IMG/VR virus record: IMGVR_UViG_3300031659_000096 | Coordinates: 1 to 23,909 of that record | Length of the DNA stretch: 23,909 nucleotides | Direction: 5' to 3' (one strand) | Source of the DNA: a virus | Shown here: one piece after another, positions 3,670 to 21,936 of the stretch | Layout of the letters: every line of letters starts with the position of its first letter | Position numbering within the stretch: the stretch's first letter is position 1 | Translations under genes and position numbers: made by a program | The notes under the pieces: model-generated | The model's input: the letters and a program-made list of their open reading frames with translations, nothing else | Database searches by the model: none | Told to the model about the DNA's origin: nothing

Positions 3670-3675
3670 AATTAT

Positions 3676-3700
3676 TAATTATTATTATATTATATTATGG
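3676..3700 (+). promoter_or_regulatory. 25-bp AT-rich start-site element, copy 1
   Basis: A 25-base stretch of only A and T until its last two bases, identical to 6425-6449. It ends in the ATGG of the scaffold-like gene, as copy 2 ends in the ATGG of the 6446 gene. It contains overlapping TATATT/ATTATA units. It may be a translation initiation leader for a host that does not use Shine-Dalgarno pairing, or an internal promoter giving a very short or absent leader. The identity is seen directly; the role is inferred. Confidence 0.55.
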
Positions 3701-4920: not shown

Positions 4921-6372
4921 ATGGCAATTACTGCGGGGCCAAACCTAAATTCGGTTTTATCCCCAACACAAACAACGTTAGTCAATAACTACATTGACTT
5001 TACAGCCACTGCAACTGCAGGATGGGCACAACAATATTTACCAGATCTTATGGAAAAAGAAGCTGAGGTTTTTGGAAACAGAAGCATTGCAGGTTTTCTT
5101 TCACAAGTGGGAGCTGAAGAAGCTATGACTTCTGACCAAGTAGTTTGGTCTGAGCAAGGTCGCTTACATTTATCTTACAACTGTGTTACTACTGATGTAT
5201 CTGCGGGTTTAGTTACTATTGGTACTGACATCGATGGTAATGCTGCTGCTGGAGCACACGGTATTAGAGTTGGTGATACTGTTATCATTTCGAAAGCTGG
5301 AGTTACTATGCAAGGTTACGTATCTGTTGAAGATACTGGAGCTGCTGTTGCGGCGATCACTGTACTTCCTTATAAAGCTGCTGCGATGACTACTTACTTT
5401 GGTGATGGTGATGTTGCAACTATCATGGTTTATGGTTCTGAGTTTGGAAAAGGAACTGTTGGTCAAGTTAAGGCTAACGAACCACAATTCAAATCTTTCT
5501 CTAACAAACCTGTTATTATCAAGGATTACTTCCAAGTTAATGGATCTGATGCTTCTCAAATAGGATGGGTTGAAGTTTCTGGTGAAGATGGACAAAGTGG
5601 TTACTTATGGTACTTGAAAGCTGAAGGTGATACTAGATCAAGATTTACTGATTACTTAGAAATGTCTATGGTAGAGTCTGTTAAGGCTACTCCTGGTACT
5701 TCTGTTATCAATACTGCTTTAGGAACTGCTACTACAGCTACTGATTTAGCTGGTACTGAAGGTTTATTCGCTGCTATCGAAGATAGAGGTAATGAAACTT
5801 CTGGTGTAACTGGTGTTAATGCTGCTACTGATTTAGCTGAATTTGACGCTATCTTAGCTGAGTTTGATAAGCAAGGGGCTATTGAAGAAAACATGATGTT
5901 TGTAAACAGATCTACTGCTTTGGCAATGGATGACATGTTAGCTTCTATGAATTCTTACGGAGCTGGAGGTACTTCTTATGGGGTATTTGACAATTCTGAA
6001 GATATGGCATTGAACTTAGGTTTCTCTGGTTTCAGACGTGGATCTTACGATTTCTACAAATCTGACTGGAAATATTTAAATGACAGATCAACAAGAGGTG
6101 CTTTACTTGATACTGCTGGTGCAATCAGAGGAGTTATGATTCCTGCTGGAGTTTCTTCTGTATATGACCAACAATTAGGTAAAAATCTTAAGAGACCATT
6201 CTTACATGTTCGTTACAGAAGCTCACAAGCTGATGATAGAAAGATGAAATCTTGGATTACTGGTTCTGTTGGTGGTGCTTCTACAAGCGATTTAGATGCA
6301 ATGAACGTACACTACTTATCTGAAAGATGTTTAGTTGTACAAGGTGCTAATAACTTCATGTTAATGAACTAA
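4921..6372 (+). CDS. Major capsid protein
   Basis: A 483-residue protein that should build the icosahedral shell, probably with the HK97 fold. I recognise the N-terminal region (VNNYIDFTATATAGWAQQYL, then FLSQVGAEEAMTSDQVVWSE and QGRLHLSY at about residues 19-85) from capsid proteins of uncultured marine phages. Residues about 95-165 form a Gly/Val/Ala-rich beta segment that may be an inserted domain. The C-terminal half has a typical FLHVRYRSS strand near residue 422. Codon choice differs from its neighbours: Ala is mostly GCT, Thr ACT, Ser TCT, Gly GGT or GGA, and the reading is smooth, as expected for the most abundant virion protein. The leader is A-rich without Shine-Dalgarno. A strong terminator follows 14 bases after the stop. 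Confidence 0.87.
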   Translation: MAITAGPNLNSVLSPTQTTLVNNYIDFTATATAGWAQQYLPDLMEKEAEVFGNRSIAGFLSQVGAEEAMTSDQVVWSEQGRLHLSYNCVTTDVSAGLVTIGTDIDGNAAAGAHGIRVGDTVIISKAGVTMQGYVSVEDTGAAVAAITVLPYKAAAMTTYFGDGDVATIMVYGSEFGKGTVGQVKANEPQFKSFSNKPVIIKDYFQVNGSDASQIGWVEVSGEDGQSGYLWYLKAEGDTRSRFTDYLEMSMVESVKATPGTSVINTALGTATTATDLAGTEGLFAAIEDRGNETSGVTGVNAATDLAEFDAILAEFDKQGAIEENMMFVNRSTALAMDDMLASMNSYGAGGTSYGVFDNSEDMALNLGFSGFRRGSYDFYKSDWKYLNDRSTRGALLDTAGAIRGVMIPAGVSSVYDQQLGKNLKRPFLHVRYRSSQADDRKMKSWITGSVGGASTSDLDAMNVHYLSERCLVVQGANNFMLMN

Positions 6373-6386
6373 GCATTATTTATATT

Positions 6387-6422
6387 AAAGAGTCGGGGCT
6401 TCGGCCTCGACCCTTTATTTTT
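6387..6422 (+). terminator. Rho-independent terminator after the capsid gene
   Basis: The arms 6387-6399 and 6404-6416 pair over 13 positions with one G-T pair and a single A-C mismatch, closing on a TTCG tetraloop (6400-6403). The GC-rich stem is followed by a T-rich run to 6422. In an AT-rich genome this GC-rich hairpin stands out. It would end or reduce transcription right after the capsid gene. Confidence 0.88.
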
Positions 6423-6424
6423 AC

Positions 6425-6449
6425 TAATTATTATTATATTATATTATGG
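6425..6449 (+). promoter_or_regulatory. 25-bp AT-rich start-site element, copy 2
   Basis: Identical over 25 bases to 3676-3700 and placed the same way, with the start codon at its 3' end. It follows the terminator within 3 bases, so genes downstream need either read-through or a new transcript start here. That makes a promoter role plausible, though a start this close to the ATG would give an almost leaderless mRNA. Translation enhancement is the alternative. Confidence 0.55.
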
Positions 6450-7306
6450 CAAAGAAAAAGAAAGTTGAGGTAGAACCTCAAATCGAAACAATGGAAGAAG
6501 TAGTTACAGAATTTTTTGAAGATACTGTAGTTGCAGAACCAAAAATTAGCAAAGCGGTTATAGAGACCCCAAAGCCAAAAAAAGATACTTGGGAGATTAA
6601 GGATAGGATGTACTACTTACTCTATGACAAGACGCCTTTATCAAAATCTATAAAATGTTCGAATATACATTGGTTTGACGAGAAAGCTGGCTATGAAAGA
6701 GAGTTGAAATACACTTCTAATCAAAGAACCTCGTTTGTTGACGAGATGGTAGGTGACCAAAGACTAGAGCATGTTATATTTAGAAATGGTACTATAAGTG
6801 TGCCTAAAAGTAAAGTCATACTCCAGAGATTATTGTCACTATACCACCCAGATAGAGACGTAGTATTTGCTGAGTTTAAACCATCAGAGCAAGCTTCTAG
6901 CGAGATTGATCTATTGGAATTAGAAATCGAGGCTTTAAATGCAGCTCAAAACCTAGACATAGATATGGCAGAAGCTGTTATGCGTGTTGAGATTGGATCT
7001 AAGGTGTCAGACATGAGTTCTAAGGAGCTTAAAAGAGATTTACTATTATATGCTAAGAGAAACCCACGTTTGTTCTTAGATTTAGTAAATGATGATAACG
7101 TAATGTTAAGAAACTTTGGGATCAGAGCTACTGAAAGAGGTATATTAAGATTATCACCAGATCAAAGAACATTCACTTGGGCTTCTAATGATAGAAAGTT
7201 AATGAACGTTCCTTTTGATGAACATCCTTACTCAGCTTTAGCTTCGTGGTTTAAGACTGATGAAGGAATGGAGATTTACTCCAATATTGAAAAAAGATTA
7301 AATTAA
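6446..7306 (+). CDS. Conserved-looking phage protein of unknown function, near capsid gene
   Basis: A 286-residue protein that starts with a Lys run (MAKKKKVEVE) and an acidic, probably disordered region to about residue 45. A mixed alpha/beta region follows, with many aromatic residues (WEIKDRMYYLLYD, NIHWFDEKAGYERELKY). After that come helical segments with MSSKELKRDLLLYAKRNP at about residues 191-208, then VPFDEHPYSALASWFKTDEG near the end. These segments resemble a protein I have seen in many uncultured marine phage genomes near the capsid gene, without an assigned function. Position between major capsid protein and connector genes suggests a head-completion, decoration or virion-associated role; this is inference. 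It is the first gene after the terminator and carries the repeated AT-rich start element, so it may be expressed separately from the capsid gene. Confidence 0.7.
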   Translation: MAKKKKVEVEPQIETMEEVVTEFFEDTVVAEPKISKAVIETPKPKKDTWEIKDRMYYLLYDKTPLSKSIKCSNIHWFDEKAGYERELKYTSNQRTSFVDEMVGDQRLEHVIFRNGTISVPKSKVILQRLLSLYHPDRDVVFAEFKPSEQASSEIDLLELEIEALNAAQNLDIDMAEAVMRVEIGSKVSDMSSKELKRDLLLYAKRNPRLFLDLVNDDNVMLRNFGIRATERGILRLSPDQRTFTWASNDRKLMNVPFDEHPYSALASWFKTDEGMEIYSNIEKRLN

Positions 7307-7319
7307 TCTAACTGTAGAT

Positions 7320-7343
7320 GCGGTCGCTCTTCGGGGCGATCGT
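7320..7343 (+). ncRNA. UUCG-capped RNA hairpin between genes
   Basis: Arms 7320-7329 and 7334-7343 form a 10-pair stem including three G-T pairs around a TTCG loop (7330-7333). It lies 14 bases after a stop and 20 before the next start. There is no T run after it, so it is a weak candidate for an intrinsic terminator; RNA processing, mRNA 3'-end protection or attenuation fit as well. Confidence 0.6.
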
Positions 7344-7363
7344 AAACTACTAAATCTAACTAT

Positions 7364-7525
7364 ATGAAAGAAAAATCCAAGGGACTAGGTGATACTATAG
7401 AGAAGATAACAAAGGCAACTGGAATAAAGAAAGTTGTAGATACAGTAAGCAAGGCTGTTGGAAAAGATTGCAATTGCGGGGAGAGAAAAGATATTTTAAA
7501 TAGATTATTCCCGTATAATAAATAA
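7364..7525 (+). CDS. Small Cys-containing protein with C-x-C motif (53 aa)
   Basis: A short gene filling most of the otherwise empty gap between two structural genes. It encodes a basic protein with an amphipathic N-terminal half (KGLGDTIEKITKATGIKKVV), then KDCNCGERK and the end DILNRLFPYNK. I recognise this layout (GLGDT near the start, Cys-x-Cys, Arg, then L-N-x-L-F-P-Y) from small proteins in many uncultured marine phage genomes, at similar places, with unknown function. The two Cys could bind a metal with partner chains or form a disulfide. The start codon follows a TCTAACTAT leader and the stop is 9 bases before the next gene, fitting the tight packing. Its pattern of conservation supports it being real; I would not name a function. 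Confidence 0.75.
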   Translation: MKEKSKGLGDTIEKITKATGIKKVVDTVSKAVGKDCNCGERKDILNRLFPYNK

Positions 7526-7534
7526 AAAGAAATT

Positions 7535-8197
7535 ATGGCAATAAGTATAGATACGGTATATCAAAAAGTTTTAACGTTTGCCAACAAAGAGCAAAGGGGT
7601 TATATAACGCCCCAGCAGTTTAACTTATTTGCCGACCAAGCACAGAAAGAAATATTTGAACAATATTTTTATGACTTGAACCAATTGAGTAGAGTTCCGG
7701 GTAGATCTGAAGAGTATAGCGACCTAGTACATAACTTAAATGAAAAGGTGGCTGTGTTTGAAAAATCAGATGGAACTGGGTTGACATTAGCTAACGTGTA
7801 TAGGTTAGGCACTGTTATGTCTAACGGGAAAGAGGTCGAAGAGGTACAGCAGAATGAACTCTTATACATGAATCAATCTCCTCTAACTGCACCATCATCA
7901 AACAGGAGGGTTTATGTTAGAACTGGGGCAACTACCATAGTAGTATATCCTAGTGGTGGAGCTACTAGCTACACATATGTGAGAAGCCCGTCAAAACCAA
8001 GTTGGGGATATGTGGTGGTGAATGAAAGAGCTATGTATGATTCGGGTAACACCATCAACTTTGACTTACACTTGTCAGAGGAATCTGAGCTGGTATATAG
8101 AATATTAGCGTTTGCTGGAATAGCAATGCAAAAACCAAACCTAACACAAGCAGCTATTGGATTGGAAACAGCTAAAGTACAACAAGAAAAACAATAA
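7535..8197 (+). CDS. Head-tail connector / ring protein (putative)
   Basis: A 220-residue protein beginning MAISIDTVYQKVLTFANKEQ and continuing RGYITPQQFNLFADQAQKEI. This N-terminal helical region is familiar from marine phages, where it lies just before the tail nozzle gene. The middle (residues about 75-170) is a beta-rich region with VYRLGTV, RRVYVRTGATTIVVYP and a WGYVVVNERAMYDS stretch. The C-terminal 40 residues are helical (ESELVYRILAFAGIAMQK). The order helix, beta domain, helix and the place upstream of the nozzle fit neck ring proteins of podoviruses (T7 gp11 or P22 gp4 role), but no residue motif proves this. It starts 9 bases after the small Cys gene, and its stop is 4 bases before the next start, so the two connector genes form one translational group. 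Confidence 0.6.
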   Translation: MAISIDTVYQKVLTFANKEQRGYITPQQFNLFADQAQKEIFEQYFYDLNQLSRVPGRSEEYSDLVHNLNEKVAVFEKSDGTGLTLANVYRLGTVMSNGKEVEEVQQNELLYMNQSPLTAPSSNRRVYVRTGATTIVVYPSGGATSYTYVRSPSKPSWGYVVVNERAMYDSGNTINFDLHLSEESELVYRILAFAGIAMQKPNLTQAAIGLETAKVQQEKQ

Positions 8198-9524: not shown

Positions 9525-12500
9525 ATGTCAGAGATTAAGCATCAGTTTACGGGTGGAAAAATGAATAAGGATCTCGATGAGAGACTTGTTCCTAATGGAG
9601 AGTATAGAGACGCTATGAACATACAAGTATCGACTTCAGAAGGTTCTGATGTTGGAGCTGTTCAAAACATATTGGGAAACCAGCTTGGGTGTTCGACTGA
9701 TATAACTCCAGTGGGATCCGTTACCGTTGGATCTGTTTCAGACGAGAAAAACGATTCTTTATATTGGCTTGTTGCCGGACCTATTTTGGGGGGAACTTCC
9801 TTAGCTACTTTAACAGCTGGTGGTAATCCTTATTATGCTAAAGACATGATAATGCGGAGAACTGCTAGTGGGTGTGAACCAGTATTAGTTGATCAATGGG
9901 CTAGTATATTCTCCAATTACGATGTAGCCAATAGTACGTACTGGGCGTCGACAAACGACAATAGTATTGTTTTAAGCGATACAGCCTTCTTAGAGCACAT
10001 TCAACTAGGAATGAGCGTATATGGAATTAATTCCGATGGTACTATAACGCCTCAAACACGAACGGTGACTAATATAGGTAATTTACAGTCTATTACAACG
10101 CCATATAGTATCGGGGTTGATGCTTCTGTAACTACTACGCTAACCCAATCTACTCCAACGCCAATAACTAGATTCGTAGCAACCATTTTACCGAACGCCC
10201 AGGGAGCTTATTCTGCTGTGATGGATGTTATATTTATTCAAAACACAAATAGTATACCTGGAGGTATTCAAATTGGTGATTATATTACATCGCAAGTTGA
10301 TTATTATGGGGTATATGCAATGAGTAGCGCACAAGTTATAGCTATATTAGGTGGTGGTTTATTCCAAATAGACACCCCGCTAGCAACTACGTCGGCAACA
10401 ATCACCCCTCCCTTAACAACATTACTTGTTGGGAGTGACGGAGTTGATTACTACCCATATTATCTTGGTGTGACGGGGACAAACGGTAGCAGCACTATAG
10501 ATAGAACATCGCAACCACTCACAAACGAAATTATACTACCAACAAATTCACAGTGGCTTAATGAGATAGCTGATTTATTTTGGGATGAAAATTTAGTTGC
10601 AATAGCTAGCCCACCAACTCTTGAGGTTTCTCCAAACGTAAATTGGCCAAACGGCGGATGTATATCTCCAAGTAGTGTAAATGTACCTGTTTTAAGCAGT
10701 GGCACCCTTGTATATGATAATATATTTAGGGTGGTTGATTGTACCGCTTATGCAGCTATTATGCCATCCAGCGCTATACCACATTCTATAACTCTAACTG
10801 TACCCATCAGCGAAGGCGAATTCAACAATCAAACTATTACTCTTGATGGTCCACTTCATTTGGGTGCTGGTTTTGAATACCTACATTTCTCAAGCGACAG
10901 GGTATTAAATTTCTCCGCTTCAAGACTAATAACAGGTATCAATATAATTGATGACATGTTATTTTGGGTTGATGGTAGGGAAGACACTTCGGGCGTCAGT
11001 AAAGTAATAGGTACCGAACCAAAGAAAATAAATATAAAAAGAAGTATAAGAGGTACTGATCTTAATGGTAATCTTCACACAAAATTAATAAACGATAATA
11101 CTAGTGTCACTGGTCCTGCTTTAAAAGAAGAGCACATAACCGTTATTAGGACTGCTCCTAAAACAGCACTAAGTTTTGATCTTATAACAGATAGGGATTT
11201 GGATAAGAATTACTCTGGGATAATGAATATATGCTCCTCTAGCGGGCCTAACATATCATCATTCACAAGCACGTCTCAAAACAGGAGGGATTTTAGCTCG
11301 CTTGAAGAAGGGGATATATTCAGAACTACCATTGATACCGATATAGATGGGAATGATGCTTTTGGATTGCCAACGTGGAAGGTGGGAACAAGAGTTGTGT
11401 TAAAGGAATTTGATGAGGCCGTTACACCAGCGATCCCCTTTACTGAAAATGAATATAGGATAAAAGGAGTTATTGTTAATTGGTCTGGAAATAAAATAGT
11501 GGGTACAACAGGAGATCCTGCACAAGTTTCTATAAAAGTTACATCAATAATAGGTTTTCCACCCACAACATCAACTACCTTAAATTATGCTGTAGACACT
11601 TATTTTGAGACGGCGAAGTTGTTTGAATTTAAGTTTCCTAGATTTTCATATAGATATAAGTATAGAGACGGAGAATATTCTACATTTGCTCCTTTTACCG
11701 AAGTAGCATTTGCTCCTGGTAATTTCAATTATCACCCTACAAAAGGTTATAATTTAGGTATGACAAATACAATAACCTCTCTTATAATTAGAGGTTTTGT
11801 GACGCAGGACATACCTAGTGACGTAGTGGGGATTGATTTACTATATAAAGAAGACGCTAGCCCCAACGTATATACTATTGATACTTTAAAACCAAACGAT
11901 CAAGTGCTTTCTGGAGCTGCCTTTAATAATTGGGATAGTAACGCGTACGAAATAACACATGATACCATTCACTCTGTGGTGCCGGCTAATCAACTATTAA
12001 GACCATGGGATAATGTCCCGAGAAAAGCACTAGCTCAAGAGGTGACTGGTAATCGCATTGTATATGGAAATTACTTACAGAACTATGATTTAACCGTTAA
12101 CAATCAAGATTTTTATCCAGAGTTCTCACTTTATGTAGCTGAAACAAAAAGCGCTCCGACAGTGCGATCTATAAAATCACTTAGAGATTACCAACTAGGA
12201 GTTGTATTTACAGATGAATATGGTAGGGAGACACCTGTTATAACAAATTCAAGTGGTACTTTCAAGGTACCGAAAAGTGATGCCAACAAAAGCAATGCAC
12301 TATCAGTGGGGTTTAATGGCAATGGCCCACCTGTTGATTTAGAATACTTCAAGTTCTTTGTAAAAGAAACTTCTGGAGAGTATTACAACATGGCTATGGA
12401 TAGGTTTTTTAATGCTGATGATGGAAATTATTGGTTATCGTTTCCGTCTTCGGATAGAAATAAGATTGATGAAGATACTTTTTTAATCTTAAAGAAAGGT

Positions 12501-15500
12501 CATGACTCTAAGGAATTGGTTGGAGATAAAGCTAGATACAAAGTTCTGGCGATTGAAAACGAGGCTCCTGATTTTATCAAAACTTCTCACTACAATATTG
12601 GACAAGTAAAACAACAAGACAATAATTTGTTTTCTAGTTTAGTTAATGCCCCAACCGAGACCAAAGATTATTTTAATATTACATCTCAACCCTTCGAAAG
12701 TGGTAGTGCAAGTGATATGCATAAAATTGAAGATCCATTATACGTAGAATTTGGCTTAACGTGGTCTAGCAAAGTATCTAATAGATATCGCATTACAGAA
12801 CTAACAAAACCTGATGGAGGAAGTACTTTCAACATAAAGATTGATGGTAGCTTCGGTAGCGATGTTAACTTCATTAGTAATGGTAGTGAGATTATAGATG
12901 GTGCTGTCATTAGATTTTATAAATATCAGGTGGAAAATAAACCTATATTTGACGGTAGATTTTTTGTAAAGATACTTAATGACGAGGTGTTTAAAAAGAA
13001 TATAGCGGTGGAAGATGTTGGGGATAAGGAATATATCGTGTCGGCAGAGAAGAAGATATATTTTATGTCTGGAGATCATATCAGTAGACACAACGCGTCG
13101 GGTACAGCTGGAACTTTTGGTGCCAACGCCAATATTAATGATAGTTATGATTCTGCTGGAGCCCAAACCTTAACCAACTTCCAGCACGGATCGTCATCTT
13201 CCTCTTCAACCTCTCAAAATTGGTATTACTATGAAACTTACTTTAAGAACAAGTTTTATATAAGCCCAGCAAGTGGATCACTACATACTAAACATAGGGG
13301 GGCTGATAAGATTTTTGAAGATGTAATGTTTATAGATAGAGGTTTTACAAGCGGTAACCATGGTCACAGTGGTCCGTTTAGGTTTCAACAACTCAACAAT
13401 ACTACTAGTAGCCAGGGTATAGGTGTCAAGAATTACACTAATATTGGTCGGATGGATTTGAGTTTTGGATCAATAGAGCCAGAAGAAAATGAAAAAAGGC
13501 TGTATAATGGAAGTGGTAGTGTTGATGTTATTGCCGCGAACGGTAAATACCACACGTCAACGTGGGATGAAAACTGGGAGTCTGGTGGTGAGGGTGCTGG
13601 TTTTTGGGATTTAACTAGCACTGATAGGAAAAAATATAATCATCTAGCCCCTATTTATGATAAAATACAATCTGGGCAACAATTCCGTTGGAAAGAAGAT
13701 CCTATGCAAACTATTTATACTATAACGCAACAAGTAGATAATTATAATGTAGTGAGGTTTGATAACACAACTGAAGGGTCTTATGTTTATAATGGTGGAG
13801 ATATAAATGATTACTACGGGGAAAGAGACAGTAATGGGCTTTTGGTAAAACATGGAACTCCATATACTCTAGCATCTAATTTCCAACAAAAGAAGAGATT
13901 TTGGTTTACACCTGCAATGTCAGCCTGGGATCCAACAAACCAAGATAGCTTGGGGCCTATAACTGGTGGGGCTAAGGTGGACGTATCAGTTAGTGATTGG
14001 GGTGATCCGACAAATAATCAAACAATATTAGCTGGAACCGCAGTAACAGGTCGTCCTAATACAATAACAATTTTTGAAAGTACATTCGATAATACTTATG
14101 ATACTGTTAATGGTGTTAGGTGGCAAATAGAAGAAGGAATGATACTCACACATATTGGTATTTCTGGAACTCTAACAGCGTTAGATAAACCGGTCTTAGT
14201 TGACAGTATATTTCGTGATAATTTGGCTAACGCATCTTATATTATCAGTTTTAAAGGTTATCAAGGTACCAGTGGAGAAGTAACTATTGGTGCACTTACT
14301 AATGTTTATGTTACTGGTCAAGCGCTAGTATTTAAGCAACCAGCGATGAATGGCTTAAGTGTTAATTCAGCTAATAATATAAGCGATTTCAATAGTGGTA
14401 CAAGTGATGGAATTGGTGCAGTTGGGTATACTATGGAATTTATAGAGGTGAAGGATGGGGATAACGAATTGCCACCAAATCCAGCTATTTGGGAAACTGA
14501 ACCTAAGGAATCTACAGATTTAGATATATACTATGAGATTAGTGGTAGTAACCCTATTAACTTAAACCCGTCTACTATAAAAACAGTTCTACCCGTAGGA
14601 TCAAAAGTGTCAAGCACTAACGGTGGTGGTTCTAGTGCGTTAACAATTATAGGTAATAATTCGATTGCTGGAGATACTATTATCTTAAGCCAAGCGCTTT
14701 GTGCTAATGCGGGTGGGTGTTATGATAAAGCTGGTAATTTAATATCAGGTGTCACTCCAGGAGTTATACTGTATGTTGAGCGCCCAAGTGGAACCGGTAT
14801 TGAGGTTGAGGTTGATGAGGTATTGGAAATATCTGGAAGTGGATACTCTAGGGTTTTTAGATTGAAAAACTCTTTATACAACACAAGTTATACTTTAAAT
14901 TGGCATAACTGTTATGCTTTTGGAAATGGCGTAGAATCAAATAGGATTAGAGATACTTTTAACCTACCATTTATTACTAATGGTGTAAAAGCTTCAACAA
15001 CTTTTGAGGAAAACTATAGAGAAGAGCATCGTAAATATGGTTTAATCTACTCTGGAATATACAATTCCAATAGTGGTGTTAATAATTTAAACCAATTTAT
15101 TCAAGCGGAGAAAATAACAAAAGACATAAACCCCATATACGGTAGTATTCAAAAACTACACTCTAGATCAGCAGCTGATGGTGATTTGATAGTCCTATGT
15201 GAGGATAGGGTATTAAAAATCCTTGCAGACAAAGACGCATTGTACAACGCTGATGGGAATTCACAGTTAATAGCAAACAACAACGTATTAGGGCAAACAA
15301 TACCTTATAGTGGAGACTATGGTATATCTAAAAATCCAGAATCATTCGCATCAGAATCATATAGAGTTTACTTCACAGACAAAGTAAGAGGCGCTGTAGT
15401 GAGATTATCTAAAGATGGATTAACGCAAATATCAGATCACGGAATGAAGGATTGGTTTAGAGATAATTTGAAATTATCTACAAAACTAATTGGTAGTTAC

Positions 15501-18500
15501 GATGATAGGAATGACGAATACAATATAACCCTTGATAACAGTGTTGATAACATTCCAAAAACGGTTTCGTTTAAAGAAGATGTGAGGGGTTGGGTGAGTT
15601 TTAAATCATTCACTCCTGAAAATGGTATTAGTTGTGCCAACGAGTACTACACTTTTAACAATGGAAAGCTCTGGCAGCATAACGATGAAGATCAAGATAG
15701 GAATACATTTTATAAGGTTTATTCAGATGATGGCTTTACACCATCAAGCATTAATGTTATTTTGAATGAATCACCTGGTAGCATTAAAACATTCCACACT
15801 TTAAACTATGAGGGGTCACAATCTAAAGTAGAAACATTTACAGATTACAACACATATTTTCCGGGAACAACAGTTGTGAGCGGTAGTACATATAACAACG
15901 AATATTACAATTTAGAACCTAAAGATGGATGGAAGGTACAAAACATAAGTACTGATCAAGAAGAGGGATCAATAAATGAATTTATTGAAAAAGAAGGAAA
16001 GTGGTTTAACTACATAAAAGGAAAGGTCGGTAGTGCTACTAATACCACATTAAATGATGGAAGCATAACTAGTGGACTTGATAATGCAGATTTTTCTTTC
16101 CAAGGGTTAGGCGTGCTACCAAGCACTGCTACCACTTCCAATCTACTTGGTTGTACTGCTAATGGTTTACTCGTAAACGCTAGTGGTGTGGTTAACGATT
16201 ACTTTGGCGACGGTGTCACTGCTTATAATTATAGTTCTATAGCTACTATTGAGGATGGATCTTGTATTGCTACAGAATATGGTTGTATGGATCCTCTTGC
16301 TGATGGTGGTAATAATTGTGAATGTAATGGGAACTTTCCTAATACGGATGATGGTTCTTGTATTTATGAAGGCTGTACTACGCTTGAGTCTACAAATTAT
16401 GATTCTAACGCAAATGCAGACGATGGTAGTTGTATTCCATTTGTTTATGGTTGTACTACTATTGGTCAATTTAATTATAACGTAGCTAATAACGTAAATC
16501 AAGTATCAGCAACTGACACTAGTAATCCTTGTGTACCGGTAATACTAGGTTGTATTAACGATGCTAATGCAACAAACTTTGCTGGGATTAACAATTTAAA
16601 TGGTGTTAACCCACCAGCTAATACAGATGATGGAAATTGCGAGTATGTTTACTATGGTTGTGTTGATACGGTGGCTTGTAACTGGTTAGATCCAGCTACC
16701 CTATATGGCAATCCAGTAACAGTGCTTACCGATAATTCTTGCGTTTACTGTGGTGATACTACTGCTGACAATGAGGACGGAGCATCTTGTAATGATGGGT
16801 GTTTATATTGTCTACTTGGAACTTCGTTTGGACTAGCTTATACGGCATCACCTGACGTGGAGATTGCTCTTCAGTGGAATCACAGTGTTGATAGTACAGC
16901 TGCTAGTGTTGTTAACTATGAGATTACATATGTAAATGATACCACTAGTGTTTCAACAACAACAACTGTAGCCTACAATGGTGGTGGCGTGCCACAATAT
17001 CACACTATATCAGGATTAACACAAAGTACTACGTACTATGTTTCAATAACAGCTGTTTGTGGTTCGTCACAATCAACTACTTCAACTGTTCACACTACTA
17101 CTGGAGTAACTCCGATTTATGGATGTACTGATCCTAATGCTACAAATGAAAATCCACTCGCTAATACAGAAGATGGTTCTTGTACTTATACTGGTTGTAC
17201 AGATAATGATCCATTAACCTCTCTTAACGGGGCTACTTTCTTTAACCACCCTAATCCTGGGAGCTTCTATACAAATCCAATTCAAGCAACTATTAGTGAT
17301 GGTAGTTGTGTTACTGTTATAAATGGATGTACCGATTCCATAGCAATAAATTTTGATTCCACTGCAAATGTTGATGATAGTAGTTGTACTTATCCTACTT
17401 ATGGATGTATGGATACATCATTAAATAACGCGGGCACAGCTATTGCAGCAACAAACTATGGGGTTCAGTATAATTCACCAGTGGGCTTTGCGGCTACTAT
17501 TCCAACTGCATGTACTTACGCTATGCCTGAGTTATGGACGGGTAATGATCAAGGTACACAATCATCACTTTTAGGTGTAACTGGATGGAGGAGTGGTGGT
17601 GTCTGGGCTAATCACAGAAGACTTTGGGCTATCTGGGACGTTAGTAATGCTCCAAAAATAAAAGGCACAGTGCCAGGAGACATACAATTTGCCTACCTGC
17701 AAGGAGCTACAACTAGTAACTACCCAGGTAATATAACTAGTTTTAACAACCCTAATCATATATGGTACAGTAATGATGACACCGCTAACTGGCTCGCGAT
17801 AAGCAATTGGATTGAAGGAGATCCAATTAAACTAATAAGGATACAATATGCAAACTCAGGAAAAGTAGCGTTTACAGGATCTAGTTACTCTAATGCCGTG
17901 AATTATCCACCACAAGTTACTTCTGGTTATACTGGTGAACAGCAAGCAGCTCGATTTAGCTTTATTGACCCTAACATTCCCGCATCGGATACTCCAATTG
18001 CTACGTATAACGTTACGTTAGGTTGTAATGATGCAACTGCTAGTAATTACGTTGCTCCGATTTCCTTCTATGATGATGCCGTACAGTGTAATTACCCTTA
18101 TACGACTGGGGTTACTACTTTTACTGGCAGCACGTCTCCTTCTTTTACCACTTCTACGCAGCCAGGCGTTTTTGTTAATACTATAACCAACGTTAGCTTA
18201 ACTTATACGCCTGCCATTCCTATAAATTTAAATCCAGTTGGCTATGAGTATCAAGCACAGTACATCGCTGATGGAGCTGCTTACGGAGTTCAGGCTGATT
18301 TCACAACATTCTTCCCGGTTCAAGGATATCAAGGGGCTGGTTATAACTCTTTTTTGTTTAGTAGCAACTTAGTGTTTGGCTTATCTACAACCACAACTTT
18401 TAATCCAAGTGGAAGAATAATACATATAAGAGCTAGAGCTTTAAGCGCGTTAGCAACTGCCTCGCAAAGTGGATCTACTCCAGCTATTCCAATCGGTGGT

Positions 18501-18530
18501 TGGGTTGACAGTTGGAGTCTAATTCCTTAA
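9525..18530 (+). CDS. Giant tail nozzle protein fused to a C-terminal adhesin (3001 aa)
   Basis: Covers over a third of the window. The N-terminus (HQFTGGKMNKDLDERLVPNG, then EYRDAMNIQVSTSEGS) is one I know from tail proteins of uncultured marine phages; such proteins occupy the place of the T7 gp12 or P22 gp10 nozzle. Residues about 1865-2080 contain IYGSIQKLHSRSAADGDLIV, RVLKILADKDALYNADGN, RVYFTDKVRGAVVRLSKDG and GWVSFKSFTPENG, resembling beta-propeller-like nozzle cores. The nozzle body appears to close near residue 2195 (NADFSFQGLGVLPSTA). From about 2205 to the end follows an adhesin-like extension: 11 Cys modules, a fibronectin type III domain, a Trp-rich globular stretch (about 2666-2830) and a final beta domain. 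The likely role is tail nozzle plus host recognition. No enzyme motif was recognised. The frame is open throughout, with no break. Confidence 0.75.
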   Translation: MSEIKHQFTGGKMNKDLDERLVPNGEYRDAMNIQVSTSEGSDVGAVQNILGNQLGCSTDITPVGSVTVGSVSDEKNDSLYWLVAGPILGGTSLATLTAGGNPYYAKDMIMRRTASGCEPVLVDQWASIFSNYDVANSTYWASTNDNSIVLSDTAFLEHIQLGMSVYGINSDGTITPQTRTVTNIGNLQSITTPYSIGVDASVTTTLTQSTPTPITRFVATILPNAQGAYSAVMDVIFIQNTNSIPGGIQIGDYITSQVDYYGVYAMSSAQVIAILGGGLFQIDTPLATTSATITPPLTTLLVGSDGVDYYPYYLGVTGTNGSSTIDRTSQPLTNEIILPTNSQWLNEIADLFWDENLVAIASPPTLEVSPNVNWPNGGCISPSSVNVPVLSSGTLVYDNIFRVVDCTAYAAIMPSSAIPHSITLTVPISEGEFNNQTITLDGPLHLGAGFEYLHFSSDRVLNFSASRLITGINIIDDMLFWVDGREDTSGVSKVIGTEPKKINIKRSIRGTDLNGNLHTKLINDNTSVTGPALKEEHITVIRTAPKTALSFDLITDRDLDKNYSGIMNICSSSGPNISSFTSTSQNRRDFSSLEEGDIFRTTIDTDIDGNDAFGLPTWKVGTRVVLKEFDEAVTPAIPFTENEYRIKGVIVNWSGNKIVGTTGDPAQVSIKVTSIIGFPPTTSTTLNYAVDTYFETAKLFEFKFPRFSYRYKYRDGEYSTFAPFTEVAFAPGNFNYHPTKGYNLGMTNTITSLIIRGFVTQDIPSDVVGIDLLYKEDASPNVYTIDTLKPNDQVLSGAAFNNWDSNAYEITHDTIHSVVPANQLLRPWDNVPRKALAQEVTGNRIVYGNYLQNYDLTVNNQDFYPEFSLYVAETKSAPTVRSIKSLRDYQLGVVFTDEYGRETPVITNSSGTFKVPKSDANKSNALSVGFNGNGPPVDLEYFKFFVKETSGEYYNMAMDRFFNADDGNYWLSFPSSDRNKIDEDTFLILKKGHDSKELVGDKARYKVLAIENEAPDFIKTSHYNIGQVKQQDNNLFSSLVNAPTETKDYFNITSQPFESGSASDMHKIEDPLYVEFGLTWSSKVSNRYRITELTKPDGGSTFNIKIDGSFGSDVNFISNGSEIIDGAVIRFYKYQVENKPIFDGRFFVKILNDEVFKKNIAVEDVGDKEYIVSAEKKIYFMSGDHISRHNASGTAGTFGANANINDSYDSAGAQTLTNFQHGSSSSSSTSQNWYYYETYFKNKFYISPASGSLHTKHRGADKIFEDVMFIDRGFTSGNHGHSGPFRFQQLNNTTSSQGIGVKNYTNIGRMDLSFGSIEPEENEKRLYNGSGSVDVIAANGKYHTSTWDENWESGGEGAGFWDLTSTDRKKYNHLAPIYDKIQSGQQFRWKEDPMQTIYTITQQVDNYNVVRFDNTTEGSYVYNGGDINDYYGERDSNGLLVKHGTPYTLASNFQQKKRFWFTPAMSAWDPTNQDSLGPITGGAKVDVSVSDWGDPTNNQTILAGTAVTGRPNTITIFESTFDNTYDTVNGVRWQIEEGMILTHIGISGTLTALDKPVLVDSIFRDNLANASYIISFKGYQGTSGEVTIGALTNVYVTGQALVFKQPAMNGLSVNSANNISDFNSGTSDGIGAVGYTMEFIEVKDGDNELPPNPAIWETEPKESTDLDIYYEISGSNPINLNPSTIKTVLPVGSKVSSTNGGGSSALTIIGNNSIAGDTIILSQALCANAGGCYDKAGNLISGVTPGVILYVERPSGTGIEVEVDEVLEISGSGYSRVFRLKNSLYNTSYTLNWHNCYAFGNGVESNRIRDTFNLPFITNGVKASTTFEENYREEHRKYGLIYSGIYNSNSGVNNLNQFIQAEKITKDINPIYGSIQKLHSRSAADGDLIVLCEDRVLKILADKDALYNADGNSQLIANNNVLGQTIPYSGDYGISKNPESFASESYRVYFTDKVRGAVVRLSKDGLTQISDHGMKDWFRDNLKLSTKLIGSYDDRNDEYNITLDNSVDNIPKTVSFKEDVRGWVSFKSFTPENGISCANEYYTFNNGKLWQHNDEDQDRNTFYKVYSDDGFTPSSINVILNESPGSIKTFHTLNYEGSQSKVETFTDYNTYFPGTTVVSGSTYNNEYYNLEPKDGWKVQNISTDQEEGSINEFIEKEGKWFNYIKGKVGSATNTTLNDGSITSGLDNADFSFQGLGVLPSTATTSNLLGCTANGLLVNASGVVNDYFGDGVTAYNYSSIATIEDGSCIATEYGCMDPLADGGNNCECNGNFPNTDDGSCIYEGCTTLESTNYDSNANADDGSCIPFVYGCTTIGQFNYNVANNVNQVSATDTSNPCVPVILGCINDANATNFAGINNLNGVNPPANTDDGNCEYVYYGCVDTVACNWLDPATLYGNPVTVLTDNSCVYCGDTTADNEDGASCNDGCLYCLLGTSFGLAYTASPDVEIALQWNHSVDSTAASVVNYEITYVNDTTSVSTTTTVAYNGGGVPQYHTISGLTQSTTYYVSITAVCGSSQSTTSTVHTTTGVTPIYGCTDPNATNENPLANTEDGSCTYTGCTDNDPLTSLNGATFFNHPNPGSFYTNPIQATISDGSCVTVINGCTDSIAINFDSTANVDDSSCTYPTYGCMDTSLNNAGTAIAATNYGVQYNSPVGFAATIPTACTYAMPELWTGNDQGTQSSLLGVTGWRSGGVWANHRRLWAIWDVSNAPKIKGTVPGDIQFAYLQGATTSNYPGNITSFNNPNHIWYSNDDTANWLAISNWIEGDPIKLIRIQYANSGKVAFTGSSYSNAVNYPPQVTSGYTGEQQAARFSFIDPNIPASDTPIATYNVTLGCNDATASNYVAPISFYDDAVQCNYPYTTGVTTFTGSTSPSFTTSTQPGVFVNTITNVSLTYTPAIPINLNPVGYEYQAQYIADGAAYGVQADFTTFFPVQGYQGAGYNSFLFSSNLVFGLSTTTTFNPSGRIIHIRARALSALATASQSGSTPAIPIGGWVDSWSLIP
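16149..18089 (+). repeat. Array of 11 Cys modules (GC...DDGSC) in the adhesin
   Basis: Each module opens with Gly-Cys, often GCTD or GCMD, has A-x-N-Y/F in the middle and closes with D/E-D-G-S-C or a worn form. Modules: 16149-16265, 16281-16361, 16371-16433, 16449-16532, 16548-16640, 16656-16742, 17121-17183, 17193-17309, 17325-17387, 17403-17513 and 18021-18089. Those at 16371, 17121 and 17325 have the minimal 21 residues; others carry loops. Seven keep a recognisable D-G-S-C-type end; 16449, 16656, 17403 and 18021 are degenerate. One Cys at each end suggests one disulfide per module; the acidic end may bind calcium (inference). The same module is familiar from Bacteroidota surface proteins. 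Confidence 0.85.
16818..17115 (+). other. Fibronectin type III domain in the adhesin
   Basis: About 98 residues splitting the Cys-module array. Strand pattern and markers fit FN3: the early Trp in VEIALQWNHS, the middle YEITYV strand, and the late HTISGLTQSTTYYVSITAVC, which is the characteristic L-x-x-x-T-x-Y-x-V-x-V-x-A signature, then a Thr-rich exit. FN3 domains are common in phage tail proteins and bind sugar or serve as spacers. Confidence 0.8.
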
Positions 18531-20603: not shown

Positions 20604-21026
20604 ATGGAAGGTATTACAATAAGACCTATAAAAGAGGAAGACTACGTCTTTATAAATGAATGGTGGAAGAACATCGATAAACTACCACCATCTAGGAGTT
20701 TACTCCCTGAAAATGGGTTGCACGGACTTATGGCCTGCAAAGATGGTAAACCTATAGTTTGCACATACTTATACCTAACAAACTCTAAATTCGGTTATTG
20801 TGATTACATGATAAGTGATATGAAGTATAAAGGGAGAGATAGATTCCAAATAGTGTTAGAGTTAATGAATGCATCTATTGGAACAGCTTGGGAATTAGGG
20901 TGTGAGGATTTTTGGTTTATAACAAAAAACAAAGGAATGCTAAAGAGATGTAAATCTCTTGGTGTTAAAGTTTCAGAGGATCCATATTATCTAATATGCT
21001 CTTCAAATTCAAAAAAAGAAATATAA
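20604..21026 (+). CDS. GNAT-like acetyltransferase domain protein (degenerate CoA motif)
   Basis: A 140-residue protein resembling the GNAT fold: strand 1 ITIRPIKEEDYVFINEWWKN, a central strand KPIVCTYLYLTNSKFGYCDY, then MISDMKYKGRDRFQIVLELM and the helix NASIGTAWELGCEDFWFITK, closing with GMLKRCKSLGVKVSEDPYYL. GNAT enzymes move an acetyl group from acetyl-CoA to an amine. The usual acetyl-CoA loop (R/Q-x-x-G-x-G/A) is only matched by KYKGRDRFQ, so catalysis is uncertain. Similar proteins occur amid tail genes of marine phages. Its leader (20551-20603) is AT-rich with a TATATAAT stretch but no clear promoter. Possible roles are modifying a virion protein or a host target; it may also be a structural GNAT relic. 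Confidence 0.6.
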   Translation: MEGITIRPIKEEDYVFINEWWKNIDKLPPSRSLLPENGLHGLMACKDGKPIVCTYLYLTNSKFGYCDYMISDMKYKGRDRFQIVLELMNASIGTAWELGCEDFWFITKNKGMLKRCKSLGVKVSEDPYYLICSSNSKKEI

Positions 21027-21030
21027 AGAT

Positions 21031-21936
21031 ATGAATAAAAACAATAATAATACAGGACCAAGCCCGTTTCACAAGAAGGGTAAAAGTGAGGGAGACCAAA
21101 AAAGATCAGGATTATTTGGTGACTGGAAAGATGATGCTTGGGGTAGTGATGAGTGGGGAATAAAAGGTTTAGGTAAAAAAGTAGACACTGCTTTTGGGGA
21201 ATTCGGGGCGATTGACACAGAGACCAACCTATGGAGTGGTGCGGAAAACCTAATGGATATTGGAGATAATTTTGCTGGTATGGAAAACACAATGGAAGAC
21301 TTAACAGTTAACCAACAACAAGCTCAATTTCAATCTCAACAAGGAAATCAACAAAGAGCCAACATACTTCAGGGACTCAAAAGCTCTGCTGGTGGGTCTG
21401 GTGTAGCTGGCTTAGCTCAAGCTATGGCTAATCAAGGTCAAATACAAAACCAACAAATATCCGCTTCGATAGGCCAACAAGAATCTTCTAACCAAATGGC
21501 TAAAGCCCAGCAAGCAGCGAGTATACAGCAACAACAAGCTCAAGGTGCGCAACAAACTGATATAGCTATGGGGCAAGGGGCTATGGAGGCTCAGAAGTTT
21601 AAACTCCAAGGAGCTGCTGATGCTAGAGATCTAACGCTTCAACAAAAGCAAGGAGAATTATCATTTTTAGCTGGACAGCTTGGTGCTAGCGAAGCTAATA
21701 AAGATGCGGATACAGCTGGTAAATCTGACCGTAGATTAAAGAAAAATATTACAAAGATAGGAAAATCAGATGCTGGGTTGAACATATACTCTTTTGAGTA
21801 TAAAGACTCGTTAGATGGTACGGGAACGTTCCAGGGAGTTATGTCTGATGAAATACCACAAGAAGCAGTTACAAGTGTAGATGGTTATGATAGAGTAAAT
21901 TACAGTATGCTAGACGTAGAATTTAAACAAATATAA
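21031..21936 (+). CDS. Gln/Ala-rich internal virion-type protein with C-terminal S74-like domain
   Basis: A 301-residue protein. Residues 1-60 are polar (a run of Asn at 4-7, then Lys/Gly/Trp-rich). Residues 90-225 are unusually rich in Gln and Ala with long helix-forming runs (VNQQQAQFQSQQGNQQRA; MANQGQIQNQQISASIGQQE), typical of podovirus ejection proteins such as P22 gp7 or T7 gp14. Residues 232-301 are an S74-like segment (next entry). The start is 4 bases after the GNAT stop and the end is 2 bases before the next start, a tight pair with the 652-residue protein. Function as an internal, ejected virion protein is inferred from composition and place; no transglycosylase motif was seen. Confidence 0.6.
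   Translation: MNKNNNNTGPSPFHKKGKSEGDQKRSGLFGDWKDDAWGSDEWGIKGLGKKVDTAFGEFGAIDTETNLWSGAENLMDIGDNFAGMENTMEDLTVNQQQAQFQSQQGNQQRANILQGLKSSAGGSGVAGLAQAMANQGQIQNQQISASIGQQESSNQMAKAQQAASIQQQQAQGAQQTDIAMGQGAMEAQKFKLQGAADARDLTLQQKQGELSFLAGQLGASEANKDADTAGKSDRRLKKNITKIGKSDAGLNIYSFEYKDSLDGTGTFQGVMSDEIPQEAVTSVDGYDRVNYSMLDVEFKQI
21724..21933 (+). other. Short S74-like intramolecular chaperone domain
   Basis: Starts SDRRLKKNI at residue 232. In S74 peptidases the chain cuts itself just before this Ser using a Ser/Lys dyad spaced by five (S232 and K237 here). GLNIYSFEYKDSLDGTG and FQGVMSDEIPQEAVTSVDGY follow, with the usual end of the conserved core. Only about 70 residues are present; the long helical tail of full chaperone domains is missing. 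Cleavage is not proven. Confidence 0.72.

Follow-up and report, generated by a model that had tools for sequence, protein, structure and literature searches.

Organization of the locus

The window, that is, the whole stretch of 23,909 nucleotides analysed here from the IMG/VR virus record IMGVR_UViG_3300031659_000096, follows the gene order terminase, portal, scaffold-like gene, capsid, 286-aa gene, small protein and adaptor-like gene. The small gene of this block (Table 1) starts with ATG, ends with TAA and encodes 53 amino acids, MKEKSKGLGDTIEKITKATGIKKVVDTVSKAVGKDCNCGERKDILNRLFPYNK, in which both motifs quoted in the initial annotation, KDCNCGERK and LNRLFPY, are found. The same annotation let the gene fit its gap exactly, but the gap (7307-7534) measures 228 nt, of which the reading frame takes 162 nt and leaves 57 nt on the 5′ and 9 nt on the 3′ side. 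The 57 nt between the stop of the upstream gene and the start codon contain a conserved hairpin. Likewise, the placement between structural genes is correct only for the downstream neighbour, whereas the upstream product matches PHROGs of unknown function only.

Table 1. Coordinates of the small gene and of the features around it in the window.
Feature	Position	Strand	Basis
Virion structural protein, head-and-packaging class, PHROG 13704, taken as major capsid protein	4921..6372	+	
Upstream neighbour, 286 aa, unknown function, PHROG 34748	6446..7306	+	
RNA hairpin 5′ of the small gene; 11-pair stem, UUCG loop (in the window), 4-pair basal stem	7314..7350	+	
53-aa protein, short form of the GLGD...CxC..R...LN..FPY family	7364..7525	+	translation, IMG/VR relatives, alignment, predicted fold
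Downstream neighbour, 220-aa virion structural protein, PHROG 14543, weakly SU10-adaptor-like	7535..8197	+	

A reading frame of this length or longer appeared in 65 of 5000 shuffles of the gap sequence, so the length by itself is weak evidence for a gene. A chance reading frame is ruled out by conservation, namely by the relatives in IMG/VR and the unbroken frame described below, and 7364-7525 is confirmed as a real gene.

For the hairpin in front of it, a 10-pair stem could be followed through 27 distinct aligned sequences. All 270 cells are paired, changes on both sides occur at eight pairs, and this level of pairing and covariation was reached by none of 500 shuffles, while slid controls were far lower. 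Several divergent relatives have here a hairpin with a U-tract behind it, the arrangement of an intrinsic terminator. The hairpin likely steps down transcription after the capsid-side genes and probably tunes transcript levels between these and the operon beginning with the small gene. A second, terminator-like hairpin with a U-rich tail (6386-6417) separates the capsid gene from the 286-aa gene, so that the latter has hairpins on both sides. A near-identical AT-rich stretch, TAATTATTATTATATTATATT, is located right before the ATG in the gaps 3670-3696 (scaffold-like gene) and approximately 6423-6445 (286-aa gene) and could be a promoter or translation signal common to both. A search of the window for known RNA families and tRNAs detected none.

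Conservation and settings of the short form

In the following, the stand-alone 53-aa type is called the short form and proteins of 115-162 aa with the same domain are called the long form. Scanning IMG/VR with the 53-aa protein revealed a relative encoded in at least 587 stretches (587 of 600 candidates among the matches listed). With hundreds of relatives in viral contigs, the wide retention proposed in the initial annotation is borne out for aquatic phages. The window protein carries the family core of GLGD, CxC or CxxC, R and LN, and is matched by PHROG 32048 (E 3e-5) and PHROG 27568 (47 aa, E 0.0012). These two groups, which include gp35 of Nonlabens phage P12024S, belong to the same sequence family and have no assigned function. 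A literature search found no paper in which the family motif is printed. Weak matches in Streptomyces plasmids also turned up in the search for relatives.

Among 43 sequences sharing the gene order of the window, the window included, the frame is unbroken in every case and the 48-residue core has no insertion or deletion. Codon position 3 is about three times as variable as positions 1 and 2, and the dN/dS check suggested earlier gave a median of approximately 0.14, which means strong purifying selection. Hence neither a lack of homologues nor a frame broken in relatives was observed. With the capsid protein as a yardstick, the 53-aa protein has a median identity of 82% to its counterpart in the window, compared with 69% for both the capsid protein and the product of the upstream gene and 52% for that of the downstream gene; the 53-aa protein is the most conserved product among the compared genes of the block. 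Residues G7, G9, D10, C36, C38, L45, N46, P50 and Y51 are invariant across 49 short forms.

The short form also occurs in a second setting with neighbours unrelated to those in the window: small basic proteins, a tail-fibre-type protein (directly 3′ of the short form in most cases), an amidase, a GTA-type holin and GroES. The small basic proteins include DUF5872 and a 96-aa family matching a minor-head/DNA-pilot PHROG. Between phages without common neighbours the short form is still about 80% identical. The comparison of the two settings gave a median pS of 0.69, with synonymous sites near saturation, versus a pN of 0.15. Recent horizontal transfer as the reason for this identity is not favoured in view of the near-saturated synonymous sites, even if pS is lower in some pairs, down to 0.33. 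Conversely, in elemoviruses and Maribacter phage Panino, which share the neighbours of the window gene, no homologue is annotated at this position, nor did a tblastn search of the phage collection detect one in them. The initial annotation had proposed to search small ORFs next to connector genes; a constant association with such genes is not seen, since these neighbours are absent in the other settings.

Two contigs deviate from the usual arrangement. In L006 (3194-4159), the 286-aa protein is fused in frame with the small protein and the hairpin is missing, possibly as a product of assembly or recombination; being the only such contig among the 80 loci listed, it does not speak for a general fusion of the two genes. 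In L076 (3998-4420), the short domain is followed by a tail resembling a separate small family found nearby in other phages, and window-type large terminase subunit (TerL) and portal genes lie about 1 kb downstream.

The long form and its sigma-like neighbour

In the long form, this domain is extended on its C-terminal side by a second one, in which a CxxC is nearly invariant. The long form was found in the Nonlabens phages P12024S/L, a Galbibacter genome contig, a plasmid record and 80 IMG/VR loci. Comparison of the short and long profiles (hhalign probability 99.9, E 8e-34) identifies both as one domain, as judged from the profiles, and PHROG 32048 matches 68 of 69 long forms. Compared with the CxC of the window protein, gp35 of P12024S, a long form, has CxxC, a shortened middle part and the second CxxC domain. 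The window protein is not a long form: its reading frame stops at FPYNK, and a sigma-like gene is absent beside it. A profile of the second domain gave no significant match to the window proteins, and the 220-aa downstream protein was rejected as a homologue of this domain on the same grounds.

All 89 long-form loci with at least 600 nt of upstream sequence have a sigma-like gene in the same orientation no more than 700 nt upstream. TerL follows at 55 of the 69 loci with at least 3 kb downstream. A subset of the sigma-like proteins passes the Pfam cut-offs for Sigma70_r2 or r4, and the P12024S gene was annotated by its depositors as sigma-70 region 2. In the reverse direction, starting from a sigma-like profile, the GLGD family was found within 1.2 kb at 65 of 67 loci, and it follows at 20 of 20 loci obtained with a divergent sigma-like query; this reverse test is only partly independent, as the profile was made from long-form neighbours and contigs overlap between the scans. 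The profile was positive in 8 of 8 long-form records and absent from 22 short-form records. Among the short-form records, a sigma gene at the Pfam level was detected only in the large window-type genomes L054 and L268, which encode a different, 252-aa sigma-70 factor elsewhere, and the other records may be incomplete.

No record checked contains both forms. One match per record was obtained for 25 of 25 short-form records, and 26 records with one or the other form likewise have a single copy, except for a plasmid record with two and one phage gene matched in two pieces. In a poorly resolved tree of 48 columns, the short forms and a minority of the long forms fall on one weakly supported side. 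Since this tree needs seven changes between the three groups and the minimum possible is two, repeated switches between forms or settings are possible.

The plasmid record with two copies, CP045836.1 (L087), contains equal matches 33,426 bp apart within 66,276 bp, which suggests a duplicated phage genome or contamination. Together with NZ_CP040811.1, it forms a pair of similar-sized "plasmid" records, from Lysinibacillus and Escherichia fergusonii, with two places each. Phage-like contigs in MAGs or isolates of Thioglobus, Nitrosomonadaceae, Maricaulis and Pseudomonadales (L109, L099, L102 and L106) are probably misbinned.

Cysteine content and predicted structure

Exactly two cysteines and no histidine occur in each of the 49 short forms, with the cysteine pair invariant and mostly present as C-G-C. 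Long forms usually have five cysteines, consisting of two pairs, both invariant or nearly so, and a fifth residue. Given these counts, the metal binding considered in the initial annotation is only partly supported: the long form could plausibly form a complete metal site, whereas a site in the short form would be incomplete and would need a dimer or a partner. The domain is basic, with a median net charge of +7. AlphaFold2 predicted three helices for the short form with confidence (mean pLDDT 90.5), and one long form reached a pLDDT of 81.6. A fold search of the PDB with short and long models gave no match, a sequence search of the PDB no convincing relative, and the anti-sigma families of Pfam no match.

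Possible functions

The domain sequence stays constant while the neighbouring genes change, which points to a partner that is common to those phages, most simply a host protein. High identity combined with near-saturated synonymous sites also points to such a partner more than to a virion protein confined to one lineage. The link of the long form to a sigma-like gene makes RNA polymerase or sigma the leading candidate. Tentatively, and as a possibility rather than a probability, we put forward that the gene encodes a small, helical, phage-specific domain that would bind host RNA polymerase or sigma; the long form would do so together with the sigma-like protein of the phage and the short form alone. 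Its conserved surface would alter the choice of promoters in the infected cell. The two cysteine pairs of the long form probably hold a metal, and this protein might cooperate with the phage's own sigma-like protein as a co-activator or an anti-sigma factor. The short form has neither the second cysteine-pair domain nor a sigma gene beside it and would target a host protein, or an unlinked phage product, directly. The single copy per record, the basic charge, the confidently predicted fold and the separate 252-aa sigma factor of L054 and L268 would also agree with this reading. Against a regulator count the unusual place of the short form in a late structural block, the missing matches to known sigma partners by sequence or fold, and the lack of a Pfam-level sigma gene in most short-form records, which may be incomplete. 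Adjacency to a sigma-like gene also falls short of proving an interaction, and the two forms may differ in function.

Known systems resemble this arrangement in part. Zinc anti-sigma factors of the RsrA/ChrR type, which control ECF sigma factors, are small helical proteins with a cysteine pair, and their genes directly follow an ECF-like sigma gene. The long form is similar in all of this, being a small helical protein with a cysteine pair directly 3′ of a sigma-like gene. The family differs in that the HxxxCxxC motif and a Pfam match are absent and the short form has no histidine. T4 gp33, a small co-activator of late transcription, binds the beta flap of RNA polymerase and forms a split sigma factor with the sigma protein gp55 (PMC2988020). 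The likeness to gp33 is an analogy in mode of action, a small phage protein accompanying a phage sigma factor, with RNA polymerase binding putative in the present family. Sequence similarity is absent (hhalign probability 0.2-0.3 %), and the genes for gp33 and gp55 are non-adjacent, in contrast to the long form and its sigma-like gene. T4 AsiA shows no sequence similarity to the long-form profile either (hhalign probability 0.3 %).

A role in the virion or in packaging is the next reading and a doubtful one. Here, the small basic protein would reside in the head or help to package DNA or complete the head, and the long form would have its role at the terminase step. This would agree with the basic charge, with the position of the short form among structural genes, with a second setting next to small basic proteins that include the possible minor-head/DNA-pilot family, with the frequent TerL gene behind the long form and with the single fusion in L006. 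It is difficult to reconcile with a protein that hardly varies while its neighbours differ completely between settings, with phages that have the same neighbours and lack the protein, and with the sigma-like gene, not terminase, as the strongest constant partner of the long form. The same three points stand against the virion clamp suggested in the initial annotation.

We consider it unlikely that the protein is an injected or early host-takeover factor with a conserved host target different from RNA polymerase, inhibiting for example proteolysis, replication or defence. Extreme conservation over unrelated gene contexts, one copy per phage and the small size would be expected of such a factor, but this reading would not explain why the long form is accompanied by a sigma-like gene, the gene of the short form lies in a late position, and no match to the PADLOC families was obtained, a library of defence rather than counter-defence proteins. 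Redox or metal handling, with C-G-C as a dithiol or dimeric metal site, for instance for disulfide formation or metal loading of virion proteins, is quite improbable, as it accounts for the conserved cysteines of both forms and leaves aside the GLGD and LN..FPY invariants and the sigma link, the short form has no histidine or further cysteine, and no fold match was found.

Accordingly ranked, the role as a transcription partner is the best-supported reading, putative and unproven, and the virion clamp is disfavoured. The further-reaching proposal that the family reprograms the RNA polymerase of Bacteroidota, either as a two-gene module with the sigma-like factor or as a stand-alone domain of about 50 residues in a late operon, possibly packaged and injected, appears somewhat unlikely. 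If a transcription partner is indeed encoded, hundreds of uncultured aquatic phages have one tiny domain of this kind in common, and a testable handle on the takeover of host transcription by Bacteroidota phages would be available. At a minimum, the label "hypothetical protein" is replaced by a defined family with two forms, and the pair of sigma-like and GLGD genes has been identified, which predicts a function.

Further features of the window

The tail region downstream of the block encodes a 3001-aa protein (9525-18530) with 40 cysteines and repeats of the type GC.D..A.N...A..DDGSC in its C-terminal third. Also encoded among the tail-region genes is a 140-aa protein (20604-21026), a possible GNAT-type acetyltransferase. 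The 301-aa protein encoded at 21031-21936 may end in an intramolecular chaperone domain of the S74 type, which its C-terminal end resembles.
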